Part shown: piece by piece, positions 3,020 to 16,563 of the stretch
How positions within the stretch are numbered: position 1 is the stretch's first letter
Layout: every line of letters begins with the position of its first letter
DNA from: a virus
IMG/VR virus record: IMGVR_UViG_3300027805_000941
Coordinates: 1 to 22,715 of that record
DNA: 22,715 nt
Strand: one strand, 5' to 3'
Program-made: the position numbers and the translations under genes
The notes under the pieces: generated by a model
Seen by the model: only the letters and a program-made list of their open reading frames with translations
What the model was told of the DNA's origin: nothing
The model's database searches: none

Positions 3020-3535
3020 TTATTTTGGAAACTTTTTCATCCAGGACTTTGTCCTGTCTGTTAGTCCATGCCAAGCAGACCAGTTCTTTCCACCATTAGA
3101 CATCTCGTAAGCAATCTTGGCATTGACATACGGATCAAAGAGGTCTTTGTTATCATTAAGACCGAATTGCTTTAGCCTTGCTGGACCTAGTGAGCCAATC
3201 ATGTTGATTTGGAATAGACCGTATGAGTTGTCCCCTGTATTGCTATTACGATTGTGTGCCATTGGTCTTCCTGTAGATTCCTTCATGGCTGTACCCCAAG
3301 CTTCCCTGAGATCCTGTCCACGGAAACCAACCGAATAGAGAATGCTCTTTAGCTTTGTTCCAGAAAGATAAGTCTTCTTTGTGTAGACTGGCTTTATGCT
3401 TTCCATAAACTTGACGCTGCCATCTGTCTTTACGACTGCCTGCTCAACGTCCTGAGTTTCTGCATATGCCACATTAGTTGCTGCCAGAGGCAAAATAAAC
3501 AGGGCAATGGCTAATTGTACTTTACGCTTATTCAT
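3020..3535 (-). CDS. Secreted lytic transglycosylase-like protein
   Basis: With the start at 3535 the product is 171 aa. Residues 1-25 are a classic signal peptide (KRK, hydrophobic core, AYA cleavage site). The C-terminal half looks like an SLT/goose-lysozyme fold: the catalytic Glu candidate is E86 in AMKESTG, followed by the SYGLFQI signature at 104-110 and the helix DPYVNAKIAYEM. An alternative upstream start at 3622 would spoil the signal peptide. A TATAAT box ends seven bases before this ATG, so the mRNA is probably leaderless. A phage muralytic enzyme exported through Sec is compatible with late lysis or cell-wall remodelling. The gene is divergent from pstS. Confidence 0.75.
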   Translation of the reverse strand: MNKRKVQLAIALFILPLAATNVAYAETQDVEQAVVKTDGSVKFMESIKPVYTKKTYLSGTKLKSILYSVGFRGQDLREAWGTAMKESTGRPMAHNRNSNTGDNSYGLFQINMIGSLGPARLKQFGLNDNKDLFDPYVNAKIAYEMSNGGKNWSAWHGLTDRTKSWMKKFPK

Positions 3536-3548: not shown

Positions 3549-3604
3549 CCATTGGAAAGACACCCATGTCTACCCCCAGAAAAATTCTTTGTTTGTTTAG
3601 ATTC

Positions 3605-3621
3605 TGTTAACCAAGTTAACA
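3605..3621. promoter_or_regulatory. Operator-like dyad TGTTAAC-CAA-GTTAACA upstream of pstS
   Basis: A perfect 7-base inverted repeat with a 3-base spacer. It covers the position where the -35 element of the pstS promoter should be (about 3610-3615), and no -35 hexamer is present there. The same bases can be read as a direct repeat of GTTAAC with a 9-base period, so a response-regulator (Pho-type) site is possible. Which protein binds is unknown. Confidence 0.5.
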
Positions 3622-3632
3622 AAAAGTATTCC

Positions 3633-3638
3633 TATAAT
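3633..3638 (+). promoter_or_regulatory. -10 box of the leaderless pstS promoter
   Basis: TATAATTAATAC is followed directly by the ATG at 3645; the last T of the box is at -7 relative to the A of ATG. Confidence 0.65.
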
Positions 3639-3644
3639 TAATAC

Positions 3645-4685
3645 ATGACTAATTCATTTATCCCAAAGGTACGCACTAGCGTAGCCATCATTGCCACCAT
3701 CCTATCACTAGGAATGGTCTCAACTTCGGTTGTTCCTGCTCAAGCAAAGACATCTATCGTTAGCGGTGGATCTTCTTTTGCCAACAGCATCATCAGCACC
3801 TGTGCTCAGGCATACAAGACTGACACTATCACCTATGCTTCAACTGGTTCTGGGACTGGACGAAACAACTTTCTGACTGGGACATATGACTTCGGGGCAT
3901 CTGATTCTCCATACGCTGCAACAGCAAAGAAGCCAGAAAACTTTACCTATGTTCCTCTAGTTGGTGGTCCGATTGCTATCGTGTTCAACGTTGATGGCGT
4001 TAGCTCACTCAACCTAACCGCCAAAGTTCTAGGTGGTATTATGAATGGCCGTTACACAACTTGGAACGACGAGGCTATTCAGTCACTAAATCCAAAGGCA
4101 AAACTTCCTAACACAAAGATCAATGTCTACTACCGTTCGGATACTTCTGGCACAACTCAGAACTTTGCTAACTACCTTCGTGGTAATGGTGCTTCTGGTT
4201 GGAAAGACAACGGAGCTTGGTCAAACGCTTCAAGCCAGTCTGCACCAGTAGGTAGCGGTGCAGCAAACTCTCAACTTTTGGTTGCTGGTGTTGCTACAAC
4301 CAAGAACTCAATTGGCTATGCTGACCTGTCTGATGTCGCTGCAAAGGGTTTGCCTTTTGCTGCACTTCGCAACCCATTGGGTCAGTATGTTAAGCCATCT
4401 GTAAAGGCATCGTCAGTGTTCCTATCTGTTCAAAAGGTAGGCTCAAATGGGATTCTTGAGATTGACTACAAGAAGGCTGTTCGTGGTGGTTACAACGCTT
4501 CACTAGTAACCTACGCCCTAGCACCAACTGCTTCAGCAAACAACGCTAAGGGAACTGCAATAAGAAAGTTTCTAACCTATCTAATCAACACTTGCTCACC
4601 TTCAAAGGCTTCTGGACTCAATTACACACCACTATCTGGTGCACTAAAGGCAAAGGCTTTGAGGTTAGTCGCCACCGTTAAGTAG
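3645..4685 (+). CDS. pstS: Phosphate ABC transporter substrate-binding protein (PstS-like)
   Basis: This 346-aa protein starts with a Sec signal peptide (R10, hydrophobic core, AQA-K cleavage at about 34). The mature part shows the PstS phosphate-binding blocks: SGGSSF at 40-45, STGSGTGR at 66-73, FGASDSP at 83-89 and YRSDTSGTT at 163-171. Cys53 near the first block and a second Cys near the C-terminus may form a disulfide. PstS delivers phosphate to the host PstCAB transporter; no pstC, pstA or pstB is present, so the phage would rely on host partners. Phage pstS is known as an auxiliary metabolic gene in marine viruses. The promoter is leaderless with a dyad over the -35 site. No lipobox is visible, so membrane anchoring is unclear. 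Confidence 0.88.
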   Translation: MTNSFIPKVRTSVAIIATILSLGMVSTSVVPAQAKTSIVSGGSSFANSIISTCAQAYKTDTITYASTGSGTGRNNFLTGTYDFGASDSPYAATAKKPENFTYVPLVGGPIAIVFNVDGVSSLNLTAKVLGGIMNGRYTTWNDEAIQSLNPKAKLPNTKINVYYRSDTSGTTQNFANYLRGNGASGWKDNGAWSNASSQSAPVGSGAANSQLLVAGVATTKNSIGYADLSDVAAKGLPFAALRNPLGQYVKPSVKASSVFLSVQKVGSNGILEIDYKKAVRGGYNASLVTYALAPTASANNAKGTAIRKFLTYLINTCSPSKASGLNYTPLSGALKAKALRLVATVK

Positions 4686-5666: not shown

Positions 5667-6362
5667 ATGGACATTGTTTATCTATGCCGCAAAGGCGATA
5701 ACGAAGAGCTAAGGTATTCGCTCCGATCTGTATCTAAAAACCTGCCAGAGAGCCGTGTGTGGCTTGTGGGATACAAACCTAGATGGTATTCTGGGGACTT
5801 TATCTCTGTGCCTGACGTATCTTCCAAGTTCAATAACATACACAATCTTATTAATCATATAGCATTTGAGGATCAAATTAGTGATGACTTTATTATGATG
5901 AATGATGACTTCTTTATTACGAGGCCTTTGGATACCGTGCCTGTTTACCATGGTGGGTTGTTGATAGATAAGATAACTAAGTATTACGAACTGGCTCCCA
6001 ATTCCCCCTACAACAGAATGCTATCTAGAACGTATAGCAGCCTCGTCAAGGCTGGGGTATGGGAACCATTGGATTACGATATCCACATTCCTTTGCCGTT
6101 CAACAGAACAAAGCTTCGTGAGACTATTGTGCAGAAAGGCTTGCCAAGATCAATGTATGGCAACCTGGCTGGTATTGGTGGAGATTACATGCCAGATGTA
6201 AAGACATATTCTAGGGGTAGCAAGATGTCGCAGAGGTCTCACGACTTTTTAAATTCAAAACTACCTTACATATCATCCGAGGATGGATCATTTTTAAATA
6301 TTCTTAATGGCGTTCTAAAGGATATGTTTCCTGAGCCATGCAAGTATGAGTACCCCCAGTAG
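5667..6362 (+). CDS. Stealth-like sugar-phosphate/glycosyl transferase
   Basis: With the ATG at 5667, two bases after the upstream stop, the product is 231 aa. The opening (YLCRKGDNEELRYSLRSVSK) and the block FIMMNDDFFI at 75-84 resemble the CR1/CR2 regions of Stealth proteins, which transfer hexose-1-phosphate in capsule synthesis; the NDD acidic triplet would bind the metal-nucleotide sugar. The usual later Stealth regions are only partly recognisable, so a GT-A-like enzyme is the safe call. A longer upstream frame overlaps the fibre gene and is unlikely. The last 12 bases overlap the 3' end of tRNA-Arg on the other strand. Confidence 0.65.
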   Translation: MDIVYLCRKGDNEELRYSLRSVSKNLPESRVWLVGYKPRWYSGDFISVPDVSSKFNNIHNLINHIAFEDQISDDFIMMNDDFFITRPLDTVPVYHGGLLIDKITKYYELAPNSPYNRMLSRTYSSLVKAGVWEPLDYDIHIPLPFNRTKLRETIVQKGLPRSMYGNLAGIGGDYMPDVKTYSRGSKMSQRSHDFLNSKLPYISSEDGSFLNILNGVLKDMFPEPCKYEYPQ

Positions 6363-6423
6363 GACTTGAACCTACGGCCTTAGCATTAGAAGTGCTCTGC
6401 TCTATCCACTGAGCTATGGAGGC
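6351..6423 (-). tRNA. tRNA-Arg (TCT)
   Basis: A 73-base cloverleaf: acceptor GCCTCCA pairs with TGGGGGT, the anticodon loop is CTTCTAA, and the T-loop TTCAAGT is present. CCA is not encoded. It reads AGA codons. There is no obvious promoter of its own, so it is probably co-transcribed with the HTH/zinc gene that ends ten bases upstream. Its 3' end overlaps the convergent glycosyltransferase gene. Confidence 0.93.
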
Positions 6424-6854: not shown

Positions 6855-7395
6855 CCCCAAAATCCCCTGCGTTGTTGACAGCACGATACAAGTCTTCTAC
6901 ATCTAAGTCATTAGATATTTGATAGTTAAACTCATAGTTGTCTAAGTCTGTTTCTGAGCCATGTCCATTGACTGGACCATGACCCTGCTTTGATATACGC
7001 CATACCTGTCCACCATGCTTCTTAATGGCCTCTGCTTCATTACGATAGCGAACGTCAGCGAAGACTACGTTTCCATGCTCCTTGGCTCTTAGCAGTCCCT
7101 GGTTTACCCAGAAGTCTGCACCAAACATTTCACGGCCTACCTCTGTCCCGAGACGCTGAAGCAACTCTCTAGCATCACTAGAGAGACGCTTTACTTCTTC
7201 CCAACCCATGTGGTCTACAGCACTAGCAAGAGATGCTCCATTAAATTCATCTATACGAATTCTAGGATCAAGTCTGTATAGTGCTTCACGGATAGGGTCA
7301 GCAAAGGATACCTTTACAAAGCCATAGTTTTCAACAAGGTGGTTTGCAACTGTGTCTTTGCCTACCTGTGCATAACCACTTAGACCAATAATCAT
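6850..7395 (-). CDS. Deoxynucleoside monophosphate kinase
   Basis: The 181-aa protein begins with a P-loop (GYAQVGKDT, residues 7-15) after a short strand, followed by the VSFADPIREAL segment typical of phage dNMP kinases of the T4 gp1 type. WRISKQG near 135 and a C-terminal helical lid are present. The enzyme phosphorylates dNMPs to dNDPs for viral DNA synthesis. It is coupled to thyX by an ATGA overlap, so dTMP made by ThyX can be phosphorylated directly. The TAA stop lies inside the next gene's -10 box. Confidence 0.82.
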   Translation of the reverse strand: MIIGLSGYAQVGKDTVANHLVENYGFVKVSFADPIREALYRLDPRIRIDEFNGASLASAVDHMGWEEVKRLSSDARELLQRLGTEVGREMFGADFWVNQGLLRAKEHGNVVFADVRYRNEAEAIKKHGGQVWRISKQGHGPVNGHGSETDLDNYEFNYQISNDLDVEDLYRAVNNAGDFGV

Positions 7396-8090
7396 TTATG
7401 AATCGCCTTAAATGTCTCTGGGAATGCACCATGGGCTAGGTCTTTGACTGCCAAAGCATAGTCCTGAATTTCTTTTTGTGCATCGTGCTCTAGTCGCTGG
7501 TCAAGGAATGTCATTACACCCTGTAGAGATACAGTCCAACGCCAACGCACATACATTCCATATGCAGGTAGGAATAGACGTGCAATCTCTGGTGCTACAT
7601 TATCCTTCATTGCTTCATGATAAAGAGCAACATTCTGGTCAATGACTTCATTTAGCTTATTAGTGTAGTGGTAACCAAGGCTAAAGTGAATTGGTTCTCC
7701 GCTACCCTGCTTGCTATTCTCTGGCTTGCTTCTCCAAGACGATGCAGATGGCACATAAAACTCTTCTTCTTCTGTAATGTATCTACGAGAAGACTCATTC
7801 CAACCATTTTGATCATCTATATGGGTAGAGCCTACTGCGTATTTCCACCATTGTCTTGCGACGAAGAGTGGTGCGTAGACTTCAAATGTGAGTGCTGCGT
7901 GGCGGAATGGCGACGTGTGCCCTTCACGAATAAGAAAGCCAATGAGCTTTGAGTCTTTCTCGGTAAAGACTTCAGACTCTTTATCGTACGATACACGAGC
8001 AGCGTTGACAACAGATAGATCACTACCAAGAGTGTCAACAAGACGTACGTATCCTTTATCCAAGACATTAATTTGGTTTCCTATTTCCAT
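7392..8090 (-). CDS. thyX: Flavin-dependent thymidylate synthase ThyX (divergent signature)
   Basis: The 232-aa protein matches ThyX over its whole length: AARVSYDKES (30-39), FLIREGHTSPFRHAALTFE (52-70), ARQW (78-81), WNESSRRY (97-104) and the C-terminal LEHDAQKEIQ helix. ThyX makes dTMP from dUMP using FAD, NADPH and methylene-tetrahydrofolate. The RHR of the usual RHR-x7-S signature is replaced (ARQWWKYAVGS) and about eight residues are inserted before the NES-SRRY block. The same region in some actinophage ThyX proteins appears similar, so it is probably functional. The gene is coupled to its neighbours on both sides. Confidence 0.88.
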   Translation of the reverse strand: MEIGNQINVLDKGYVRLVDTLGSDLSVVNAARVSYDKESEVFTEKDSKLIGFLIREGHTSPFRHAALTFEVYAPLFVARQWWKYAVGSTHIDDQNGWNESSRRYITEEEEFYVPSASSWRSKPENSKQGSGEPIHFSLGYHYTNKLNEVIDQNVALYHEAMKDNVAPEIARLFLPAYGMYVRWRWTVSLQGVMTFLDQRLEHDAQKEIQDYALAVKDLAHGAFPETFKAIHK

Positions 8091-8305
8091 TAGATTGATT
8101 TAGCTTCTTCAATAAGTTCTTGAATAGTTTGAATTACGTGCTTAGAGTAGTATGCAAAGTGAGGATCTTCTGTTGCTGTTTCGTTAAACTCTTTAACAAA
8201 AATAGAGATTAGTTTATCGTATGCTGTAAGCATTCCCTCACGAACTAGGGATGCAACTACAATCTCCTGTTCTGGAGTTAGGTTATCAAGGTCAAGGTTA
8301 ATCAT
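8090..8305 (-). CDS. Hypothetical 71-aa helical protein
   Basis: The protein is 71 aa, acidic and helical, with no cysteines and no membrane segment. No family is recognised. Its ATG overlaps the end of the GroES gene by eight bases and its TAA overlaps the thyX ATG (TAATG), so it is translated as part of the GroES-ThyX-kinase string. The tight coupling suggests co-regulation but not a function. Confidence 0.65.
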   Translation of the reverse strand: MINLDLDNLTPEQEIVVASLVREGMLTAYDKLISIFVKEFNETATEDPHFAYYSKHVIQTIQELIEEAKSI

Positions 8306-8609
8306 TTGACTTCACCGCATCATCTACAATTACTGCAAAGATGTCACGGTAAGGAAGGATCACTAGGTTCTGACCCTGGTGCTCAATCTCTGTACCGCTG
8401 TACTTAGAATAGATAACCTTGTCACCTTTCTTAAGGTCAATGGTCATCTTGGTTCCGTCTGCAAATGTTGCACCAGACCCAACAGCGATTACGACACCCT
8501 CTGTTGGCTTTTCTTTATCTAGTGTCTGAATGATAAGTCCCGATGCTGAAGTTTTTTCTGCTTCAACGATTGGCTTTACAACAATCTTATCTTCTAAAGG
8601 TTTAATCAT
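8298..8609 (-). CDS. groES: GroES-type co-chaperonin
   Basis: This 103-aa protein has the GroES beta barrel: IKPLEDKIVVKPI at the N-terminus, the mobile loop (EKTSASGLIIQTLD), GVVIAVGSGA, the roof region, GDKVIYSKYSG and the C-terminal ILPYRDIFAVI. Length is normal (about 95-105). GroES caps the GroEL chamber. No groEL is present here, so it would work with the host chaperonin, as T4 gp31 does for capsid folding. It starts at the TAA of the upstream gene (TAATG). Confidence 0.92.
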   Translation of the reverse strand: MIKPLEDKIVVKPIVEAEKTSASGLIIQTLDKEKPTEGVVIAVGSGATFADGTKMTIDLKKGDKVIYSKYSGTEIEHQGQNLVILPYRDIFAVIVDDAVKSND

Positions 8610-8860: not shown

Positions 8861-8873
8861 CTATTCCTCTCTG

Positions 8874-8945
8874 CTCCCCCACCAGGATTCGAACCTAGAA
8901 CGACAGCACCAAAAACTGTAGTGTTGCCAATTACACCAAAGGGGA
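8874..8945 (-). tRNA. tRNA-Gln (TTG)
   Basis: A 72-base cloverleaf with D-stem GTGT/ACAC, anticodon stem ACAGT/GCTGT, loop TTTTGGT and T-loop TTCGAAT. One mismatch (position 7 with 66) and a G-T pair weaken the acceptor stem. CCA is not encoded. One base separates it from the upstream tRNA-Glu. Confidence 0.9.
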
Positions 8946-8946
8946 T

Positions 8947-9021
8947 TGGCAGTCCCAAGGGGAATCGAACCCCTCCCACCGCCGTGAAAGGGCAGCGTTC
9001 TAACCGATAAACTATGGGACC
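8947..9021 (-). tRNA. tRNA-Glu (TTC), CCA encoded
   Basis: Acceptor GGTCCCA pairs with TGGGACT, the anticodon loop is CTTTCAC, and the T-loop is TTCGATT. G73 is followed by a genomic CCA, the only one of the seven tRNAs here to have it. Confidence 0.93.
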
Positions 9022-12966: not shown

Positions 12967-13269
12967 CTATTCCTTGTCCTGCCCACTTGTGTCCATTGTA
13001 AGGTTTTTCCAAACGATACCCCAGTCAGCCTTCGATCTGTGCTTGTTAAACTCTCTAGAGATTTTTCCATTCTCCATGTAGACTCCTCCGTGAACACCAA
13101 TTGCTTTTTGAGAAATGCCAACTGCAAAACATTGCTTTACAACAGGGCAGTGAAAACATAGCTCGTCAATTGCTGGTCTAAGTTCTAGATCTTCTTCATA
13201 CTTGTCAAAGAAAAGTTCTGTGTCGAAGCCCTTGCAGCTTGCTTCTTCTTTCCAATCATCGTTGTTCAT
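12967..13269 (-). CDS. WhiB-like Fe-S transcription factor
   Basis: The 100-aa protein has the four-Cys pattern of Wbl proteins: C12 (EASCKG), C38 and C41 (ELCFHCPV) and C47 (VKQC), preceded by Trp6 and the FF pair at 20-21. The G(V/I)WGG turn is present as GVHGGVY with His in place of Trp. Wbl proteins bind a 4Fe-4S cluster and the sigma subunit of RNA polymerase, and occur only in Actinobacteria and their phages. A phage WhiB can reprogram or inhibit host transcription. The basic C-terminus is shorter than in host paralogues. The neighbours are small unknown proteins in the same operon. Confidence 0.85.
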   Translation of the reverse strand: MNNDDWKEEASCKGFDTELFFDKYEEDLELRPAIDELCFHCPVVKQCFAVGISQKAIGVHGGVYMENGKISREFNKHRSKADWGIVWKNLTMDTSGQDKE

Positions 13270-16148: not shown

Positions 16149-16156
16149 CCACTTAG

Positions 16157-16228
16157 AGCCACCTGTCAGGATTGAACTGACGACCTACGCATTACAAGTG
16201 CGTTGCTCTACCACTGAGCTAAGGAGGC
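16157..16228 (-). tRNA. tRNA-Thr (TGT)
   Basis: A 72-base cloverleaf with acceptor GCCTCCT/AGGTGGC (one T-T mismatch), anticodon loop CTTGTAA and T-loop TTCAATC. It reads ACA codons. CCA is not encoded. Confidence 0.93.
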
Positions 16229-16245
16229 ATTGATATTGCTACCAG

Positions 16246-16319
16246 CGATCTGTATGGGACTTGAACCCACGACCCCCACCGTGACAGGGTGGTGCTCTAA
16301 CCAACTGAGCTAACAGACC
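16246..16319 (-). tRNA. tRNA-Asp (GTC)
   Basis: A 74-base cloverleaf with acceptor GGTCTGT/ACAGATC, anticodon loop CTGTCAC and T-loop TTCAAGT. CCA is not encoded. Confidence 0.94.
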
Positions 16320-16323
16320 AGGA

Positions 16324-16366
16324 GAGGCACCCAGTGAAATATCGTTGAGTGATGCTAGGGTGCCTC
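16324..16366 (-). other. Hairpin spacer between tRNA-Gly and tRNA-Asp
   Basis: A perfect 9-bp inverted repeat, GAGGCACCC (16324-16332) and GGGTGCCTC (16358-16366), with a 25-base loop in the spacer between two tRNAs. The loop has no cloverleaf features. It may be a processing signal, a small RNA or a degraded tRNA. Confidence 0.5.
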
Positions 16367-16368
16367 AG

Positions 16369-16439
16369 AGCGTATGACAGGAATCGAACCTGCACCTCTA
16401 ACTTGGAAGGATAGGGCACTACCACTATGCAACATACGC
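16369..16439 (-). tRNA. tRNA-Gly (TCC)
   Basis: A 71-base cloverleaf with perfect acceptor GCGTATG/CATACGC, anticodon loop CTTCCAA and T-loop TTCGATT. It reads GGA codons. CCA is not encoded. Confidence 0.94.
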
Positions 16440-16442
16440 ATT

Positions 16443-16480
16443 GCCCATTTTTATCTCTTACCCACGAGAGTGGTATGGGC
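16443..16480 (-). other. Nested inverted repeat between tRNA-Asn and tRNA-Gly
   Basis: GCCCAT (16443-16448) pairs with ATGGGC (16475-16480) and encloses a second stem, CCAC/GTGG with a four-base loop. It is a structured spacer like the one on the other side of tRNA-Gly. Confidence 0.35.
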
Positions 16481-16491
16481 CACACCATTAG

Positions 16492-16563
16492 CTCCTCCTC
16501 CTGGGATCGAACCAGGGACCTTAGAGTTAACAGCTCTCTGCTCTGCCTCTGAGCTAAGAAGGA
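16492..16563 (-). tRNA. tRNA-Asn (GTT)
   Basis: A 72-base cloverleaf with acceptor TCCTTCT/AGGAGGA, anticodon loop CTGTTAA and T-loop TTCGATC. The outermost pair of the anticodon stem is mismatched. It is the first tRNA of the minus-strand cluster. CCA is not encoded. Confidence 0.92.

Follow-up and report, generated by a model that had tools for sequence, protein, structure and literature searches.

A candidate host-type PHO box at the promoter of a phage pstS gene probably acquired from freshwater Microbacteriaceae

The pstS gene of this phage is probably activated by the SenX3-RegX3/PhoR-PhoP system of its host through a PHO box of the host type, a reading which, judged from the sequence, we put at about three chances in four. 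The virus would in that case probably turn pstS on when its host is short of phosphate. Phage pstS genes under host Pho control are known from cyanophages, and on the best reading the new element here is a phage of freshwater actinobacteria. The window, i.e., the whole stretch of viral DNA that was analysed (22,715 nucleotides), had been given a first-pass annotation in which a host PhoP-type site was proposed at the pstS promoter. The site does match the boxes of host pst and pho genes, while the register assigned to it (a pair of GTTAAC at 9 bp) and the dyad proved to be wrong or unneeded.

pstS (3645-4685, plus strand) encodes a phosphate-binding protein of 346 amino acids. The product matches Pfam PBP_like_2 (2e-33), the phage family phrog_5385, and solved PstS structures, and its match to the NCBIfam model TIGR00975 PstS (2.6e-56) lies slightly below the model cut-off; these profile matches agree with the identification made earlier, and a signal peptide is recognizable by eye. 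In phage and host PstS, the signal peptide ends AQA or AIA/MAA (window 3645-3750; L007, L010) and is without a lipobox cysteine. A second host PstS-like protein, encoded downstream (LTACDPP), looks like a lipoprotein. As annotated, transporter genes are missing, with no pstC, pstA, or pstB within the window, a record that may be a fragment. In the host, pstS is located after pstCAB in a complete operon.

In a PstS tree of 36 rows, the four phage PstS form one clade within the PstS of Luna-type freshwater Microbacteriaceae (support 100/100), and the nearest host proteins (L017-L020) are 68-77% identical to them. Since the phage clade is nested in host PstS, the gene was probably taken from that host group. 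It is from this tree that we infer the host. The DNA is a virus record, with WhiB-like and head-protease matches in the window, and the WhiB-like protein (12967-13269, minus strand) fits an actinobacterial host. Genes for a GroES-like protein (Cpn10; 8298-8609) and ThyX (7392-8090) also lie on the minus strand, as do seven tRNA genes (Arg, Gln, Glu, Thr, Asp, Gly, and Asn; 6350-6423, 8873-9021, and 16156-16563). Among annotated phage records, the closest PstS matches had less than 60% protein identity and were mostly from cyanophages, and when viral contigs were searched more widely with two alignments, no additional, more remote phage PstS turned up.

The dyad TGTTAAC-CAA-GTTAACA (TGTTAACCAAGTTAACA) is present at 3605-3621 (plus strand) as previously described, and it recurs nowhere else in the window in exact form. 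Because GTTAAC equals its reverse complement, any two copies form a dyad as well as a direct repeat. The hexamer is scarce: the 22.7 kb contain three, and the dyad site accounts for two of them. Perfect 7-bp inverted repeats separated by a loop no longer than 10 were found 19 times in the window, compared with 20.4 expected. As such dyads are about as frequent as chance predicts, the symmetry is no argument, and the meaning attached to the dyad in itself was not borne out; the two GTTAAC copies look like a dyad because GTTAAC is self-complementary. No terminator is predicted at the dyad.

The direct repeat that had been offered as another way to read the site is real, in a different register. 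A repeat with an 11-bp period, GTTTAGATTCT followed by GTTAACC, occupies 3595-3612 and starts 11 bp before the first GTTAAC. Unit 1 of this box is GTTTAGA (3595-3601, plus strand), which is degenerate in the window and reads GTTTACC in two related contigs, L004 and L005. Unit 2 is GTTAACC (3606-3612, plus strand), which coincides with the dyad's left arm. Among the half-sites ahead of host pstC and pstS it is the most frequent, and all phage alleles keep its GTTAAC. The half-sites thus stand at the 11 bp of an actinobacterial PHO box, the register of host pst boxes, as GTTTAGA-N4-GTTAACC in the window and GTTTACC-N4-GTTAACT in L004/L005. A third half-site, GTTAACA (3615-3621, plus strand; ATTAACA in L004/L005), is 9 bp from unit 2, with 11 bp between its end and the -10 element. 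Its TTAACAAAAA is invariant in all alleles, and it may be a polymerase-proximal contact or a remnant. The host boxes lend no support to a 9-bp spacing; with the sole exception of L072, host pairs at this distance fall within coding sequence, and the host-like pair is GTTTA...GTTAAC at 11 bp rather than the two GTTAAC copies.

Upstream of pstC in the host genus (freshwater Microbacteriaceae), two half-sites of the GTT(A/C)AC(C/T) type stand at exactly 11 bp in all 13 regions examined, e.g., ATTAACCTTGCGTTAACT or GTTAACCTTCCGTTAACC; this set was partly found by repeat search and is not fully independent, and eight of the 13 were fetched and then scanned with a degenerate 11-bp pattern. The pstC half-sites are polar, 26 lying on the coding strand and 2 on the opposite strand (shuffles, 1.4); the upstream regions of 31 host pstS genes hold 69 half-sites vs 4.5 in shuffles. 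Similar boxes precede the host polyphosphate kinase gene ppk (L112) and adjoin the gene of the Pit phosphate transporter (L061). The comparison with host pst/pho upstream regions that the first-pass annotation called for therefore gives a match at pstC, pstS, ppk, and pit. These host boxes agree with published actinobacterial motifs (PMC6754071, PMC7866108): the PolR motif is GTTCACnnnnnGTTCaC and that of Streptomyces PhoP is GtTCAccnnnn (PMC6754071), and in Streptomyces both pstS and ppk have PHO boxes (PMC7866108). A PHO-like box, GTTAACCTTCCGTTCACC, is also found 8 bases upstream of the start of a cytosine/purine permease gene in two host genomes (L075, L078), and Pho control of nucleobase uptake in the host is possible. 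The host, as placed by the PstS tree, also encodes a regulator of the expected kind. phoU was found in seven of seven host genomes tried, and one host genome (G004) carries a gpm-phoU-kinase-regulator locus with a PhoR/SenX3-type kinase and, adjoining phoU, a fully read RegX3-type regulator (2oqr, 7.5e-93).

Across 67 host-genus genomes, sites within one base of the phage 18-mer GTTTAGATTCTGTTAACC occur only upstream of pstS, in two related genomes; given that relationship, the two closest matches amount to a single event, and the PstS of these hosts is no more than a distant relative. Nine sites have two mismatches, and one of these is at a phosphate gene, upstream of ppk (about 2-3 bases off). 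GTTTAGATTCTATTAACCAA, which equals the phage promoter in 19 of 20 bases, lies ahead of a host pstS outside any pst operon in L038 (G166) and L118 (G213), where the PstS proteins are only distantly related to phage PstS. Scored with a matrix trained solely on host pstC boxes, the 11-bp box of L004/L005 (GTTTACCTATT followed by GTTAACT) reaches 17.4 bits, a score expected 0.03 times in 22.7 kb, and no site on the scanned contigs scores higher. The 11-bp box of the window reaches 7.9 bits and is third-best there; a score of this size is expected by chance about 5 times in 22.7 kb and 0.0095 times in the 109-bp gap. In the window, the 9-bp pair (18.4 bits) outscores the 11-bp pair, whereas in L004/L005 the order is reversed (7.5 bits for the 9-bp pair). 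The window box by itself would not convince, and because chance would give about five such scores per window, the case rests on position, alleles, and host match.

Only four distinct phage alleles, 86-88% alike, are available, a small set that counts against the preferred reading. GTTTA, GTTAAC, TTAACAAAAA, and TATAATTAATACATG are constant across them, as are the -10 element and the ATG, while the upstream flank varies. The dyad arms are perfect over 7 bp in the window and in L002/L003, and near-perfect in L004/L005. Of 2.9 million IMG/VR viral contigs scanned with the pattern GTTTA-N5-TGTTAAC-N4-TTAACA, nine contain it; six belong to this phage group and have it upstream of pstS, and the other three have a lower GC and no pstS-like reading frame. 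The concern that the dyad might also occur at unrelated genes was thereby addressed, as the composite motif is in promoter position only at this pstS. A general phage operator was rejected, since the window has a single copy and the viral contigs showed the motif in no other promoter. Control of the divergent lysozyme-like gene (SLT_3; 3020-3535, minus strand) by the box is also unlikely, as this gene has its own -35 (TAGACA, 3572-3567) and -10 (TATAAT, 3548-3543), and in L005 the box is retained although the divergent gene is a different one.

The -10 element of pstS, TATAAT at 3633-3638 (plus strand), is invariant, and no allele has a TGn or a -35. The absence of a -35 hexamer noted earlier is confirmed, the best candidate at 15-19 nt spacing having 3 of 6 matches, and a pattern scanner found no sigma-70-type promoter on the plus strand at pstS. 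TATAAT ends 6 nt before the ATG (3645), and because the start is so close to the -10, the pstS transcript is probably leaderless. TATAAT also stands 5-7 bases ahead of the start codon in at least six further genes of the window, as in leaderless genes, which suggests that leaderless transcription is widespread in this phage. Such starts lie at 389(-), 3535(-), 4711(+), 4938(+), 6843(-), and 11172(-), and the same promoters recur in related contigs. Among the TATAAT-N6-ATG promoters of this phage, a good -35 is commonly missing, and about half have a TGn extended -10. Host pstS genes, unlike phage pstS, have a leader with a ribosome site, and the phage seems to have placed a host-type operator ahead of a core promoter of its own. 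It is conceivable, if doubtful, that this combination of host starvation operator and leaderless phage core promoter with three half-sites (11 then 9 bp), unused by host promoters, gives pstS its own strength or timing of response to SenX3-RegX3.

Under the proposed Pho control, phosphate starvation would cause the host sensor kinase (SenX3/PhoR type) to phosphorylate the response regulator (RegX3/PhoP type), which would bind the GTTTAGA-N4-GTTAACC repeat head to tail and possibly also the third half-site, beside polymerase. Bound regulator would substitute for the absent -35 and recruit polymerase to the phage TATAAT, with transcription starting at or adjoining the ATG. The extra PstS would supply the host's own PstCAB pump during infection, to the presumed benefit of the phage. 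In a cyanophage study, predicted Pho boxes in phage genomes were no reliable predictor of binding (PMC10976474).

The dyad could instead be the operator of a two-fold symmetric dimeric regulator, a phage repressor or another host factor, which represses or activates pstS from over the -35. Its placement there and its arms, perfect in three contigs and near-perfect in the other two, are as such an operator would have them. An inverted repeat that is both conserved and beyond chance was not found, however, as one arm is changed to ATTAACA in L004/L005 and dyads of this size occur at chance frequency; the symmetry follows from two self-complementary half-sites, and the window holds no second copy, nor do other genes in viral contigs. 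We regard this explanation as improbable. The site might also belong to a different host regulator that recognises similar sequences, e.g., GlnR or another member of the OmpR family, and respond to a signal other than phosphate. The boxes ahead of the permease gene in the host genus are of the same kind, and GlnR and PhoP compete at the same Streptomyces promoters according to a reference listed in PMC4415409; against this, same-kind boxes occur at every pstC examined, at pstS, at ppk, and near pit, all of which are phosphate genes, leaving little room for such a regulator.

There is a still smaller chance that the half-sites are relics from the host gene or accidental, with pstS expressed constitutively from the -10 like the other leaderless genes of this phage. 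Those genes do use TATAAT-N6-ATG without a good -35, and the window box is degenerate, but the block is constant while its flanks vary, the box of L004/L005 is near-consensus, and the half-sites remain although the host leader with its ribosome site has been replaced. Activation by the host Pho regulator is the reading we prefer.

In E. coli promoters of the PhoB class, the Pho box stands in for the -35 hexamer, and about 10 bp separate its end from the -10. Similarly, 11 bp lie between the third phage half-site and its -10, but the half-site sequence is another one and the last spacing is 9 bp, not 11. The boxes of Streptomyces PhoP, Microlunatus PolR (PMC6754071, PMC7866108), and mycobacterial RegX3 likewise are GTTCAC-like direct repeats at 11 bp ahead of pst, ppk, and pit; unlike in those systems, GTTAACC is favoured over GTTCACC, the host genus is experimentally uncharacterised, and the box is also on a phage. 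The nearest parallel in phages is cyanophage pstS under host PhoBR (P-SSM2 in Prochlorococcus, and Synechococcus phages; PMC10976474), which shares a pstS of host derivation, here indicated by the clade within host PstS in a virus record, the absence of transporter genes, and a Pho box of the host type. The present case differs from the cyanophages in its actinobacterial host, GTTAACC at 11 bp, a RegX3/PhoP-type regulator, and a core promoter that is probably leaderless; the cyanophage case also has binding and expression data (PMC10976474). In the literature covered by our search, no pho box had been described at the pstS of an actinophage.

If this reading is true, marine cyanophages are not the only phages to exploit the phosphate-starvation switch of their hosts; the same strategy would have evolved once more in phages that infect small freshwater actinobacteria, built on another motif and via capture of a host pstS. 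The general prediction is that phages of phosphate-limited plankton put phosphate genes under the host's own Pho box.
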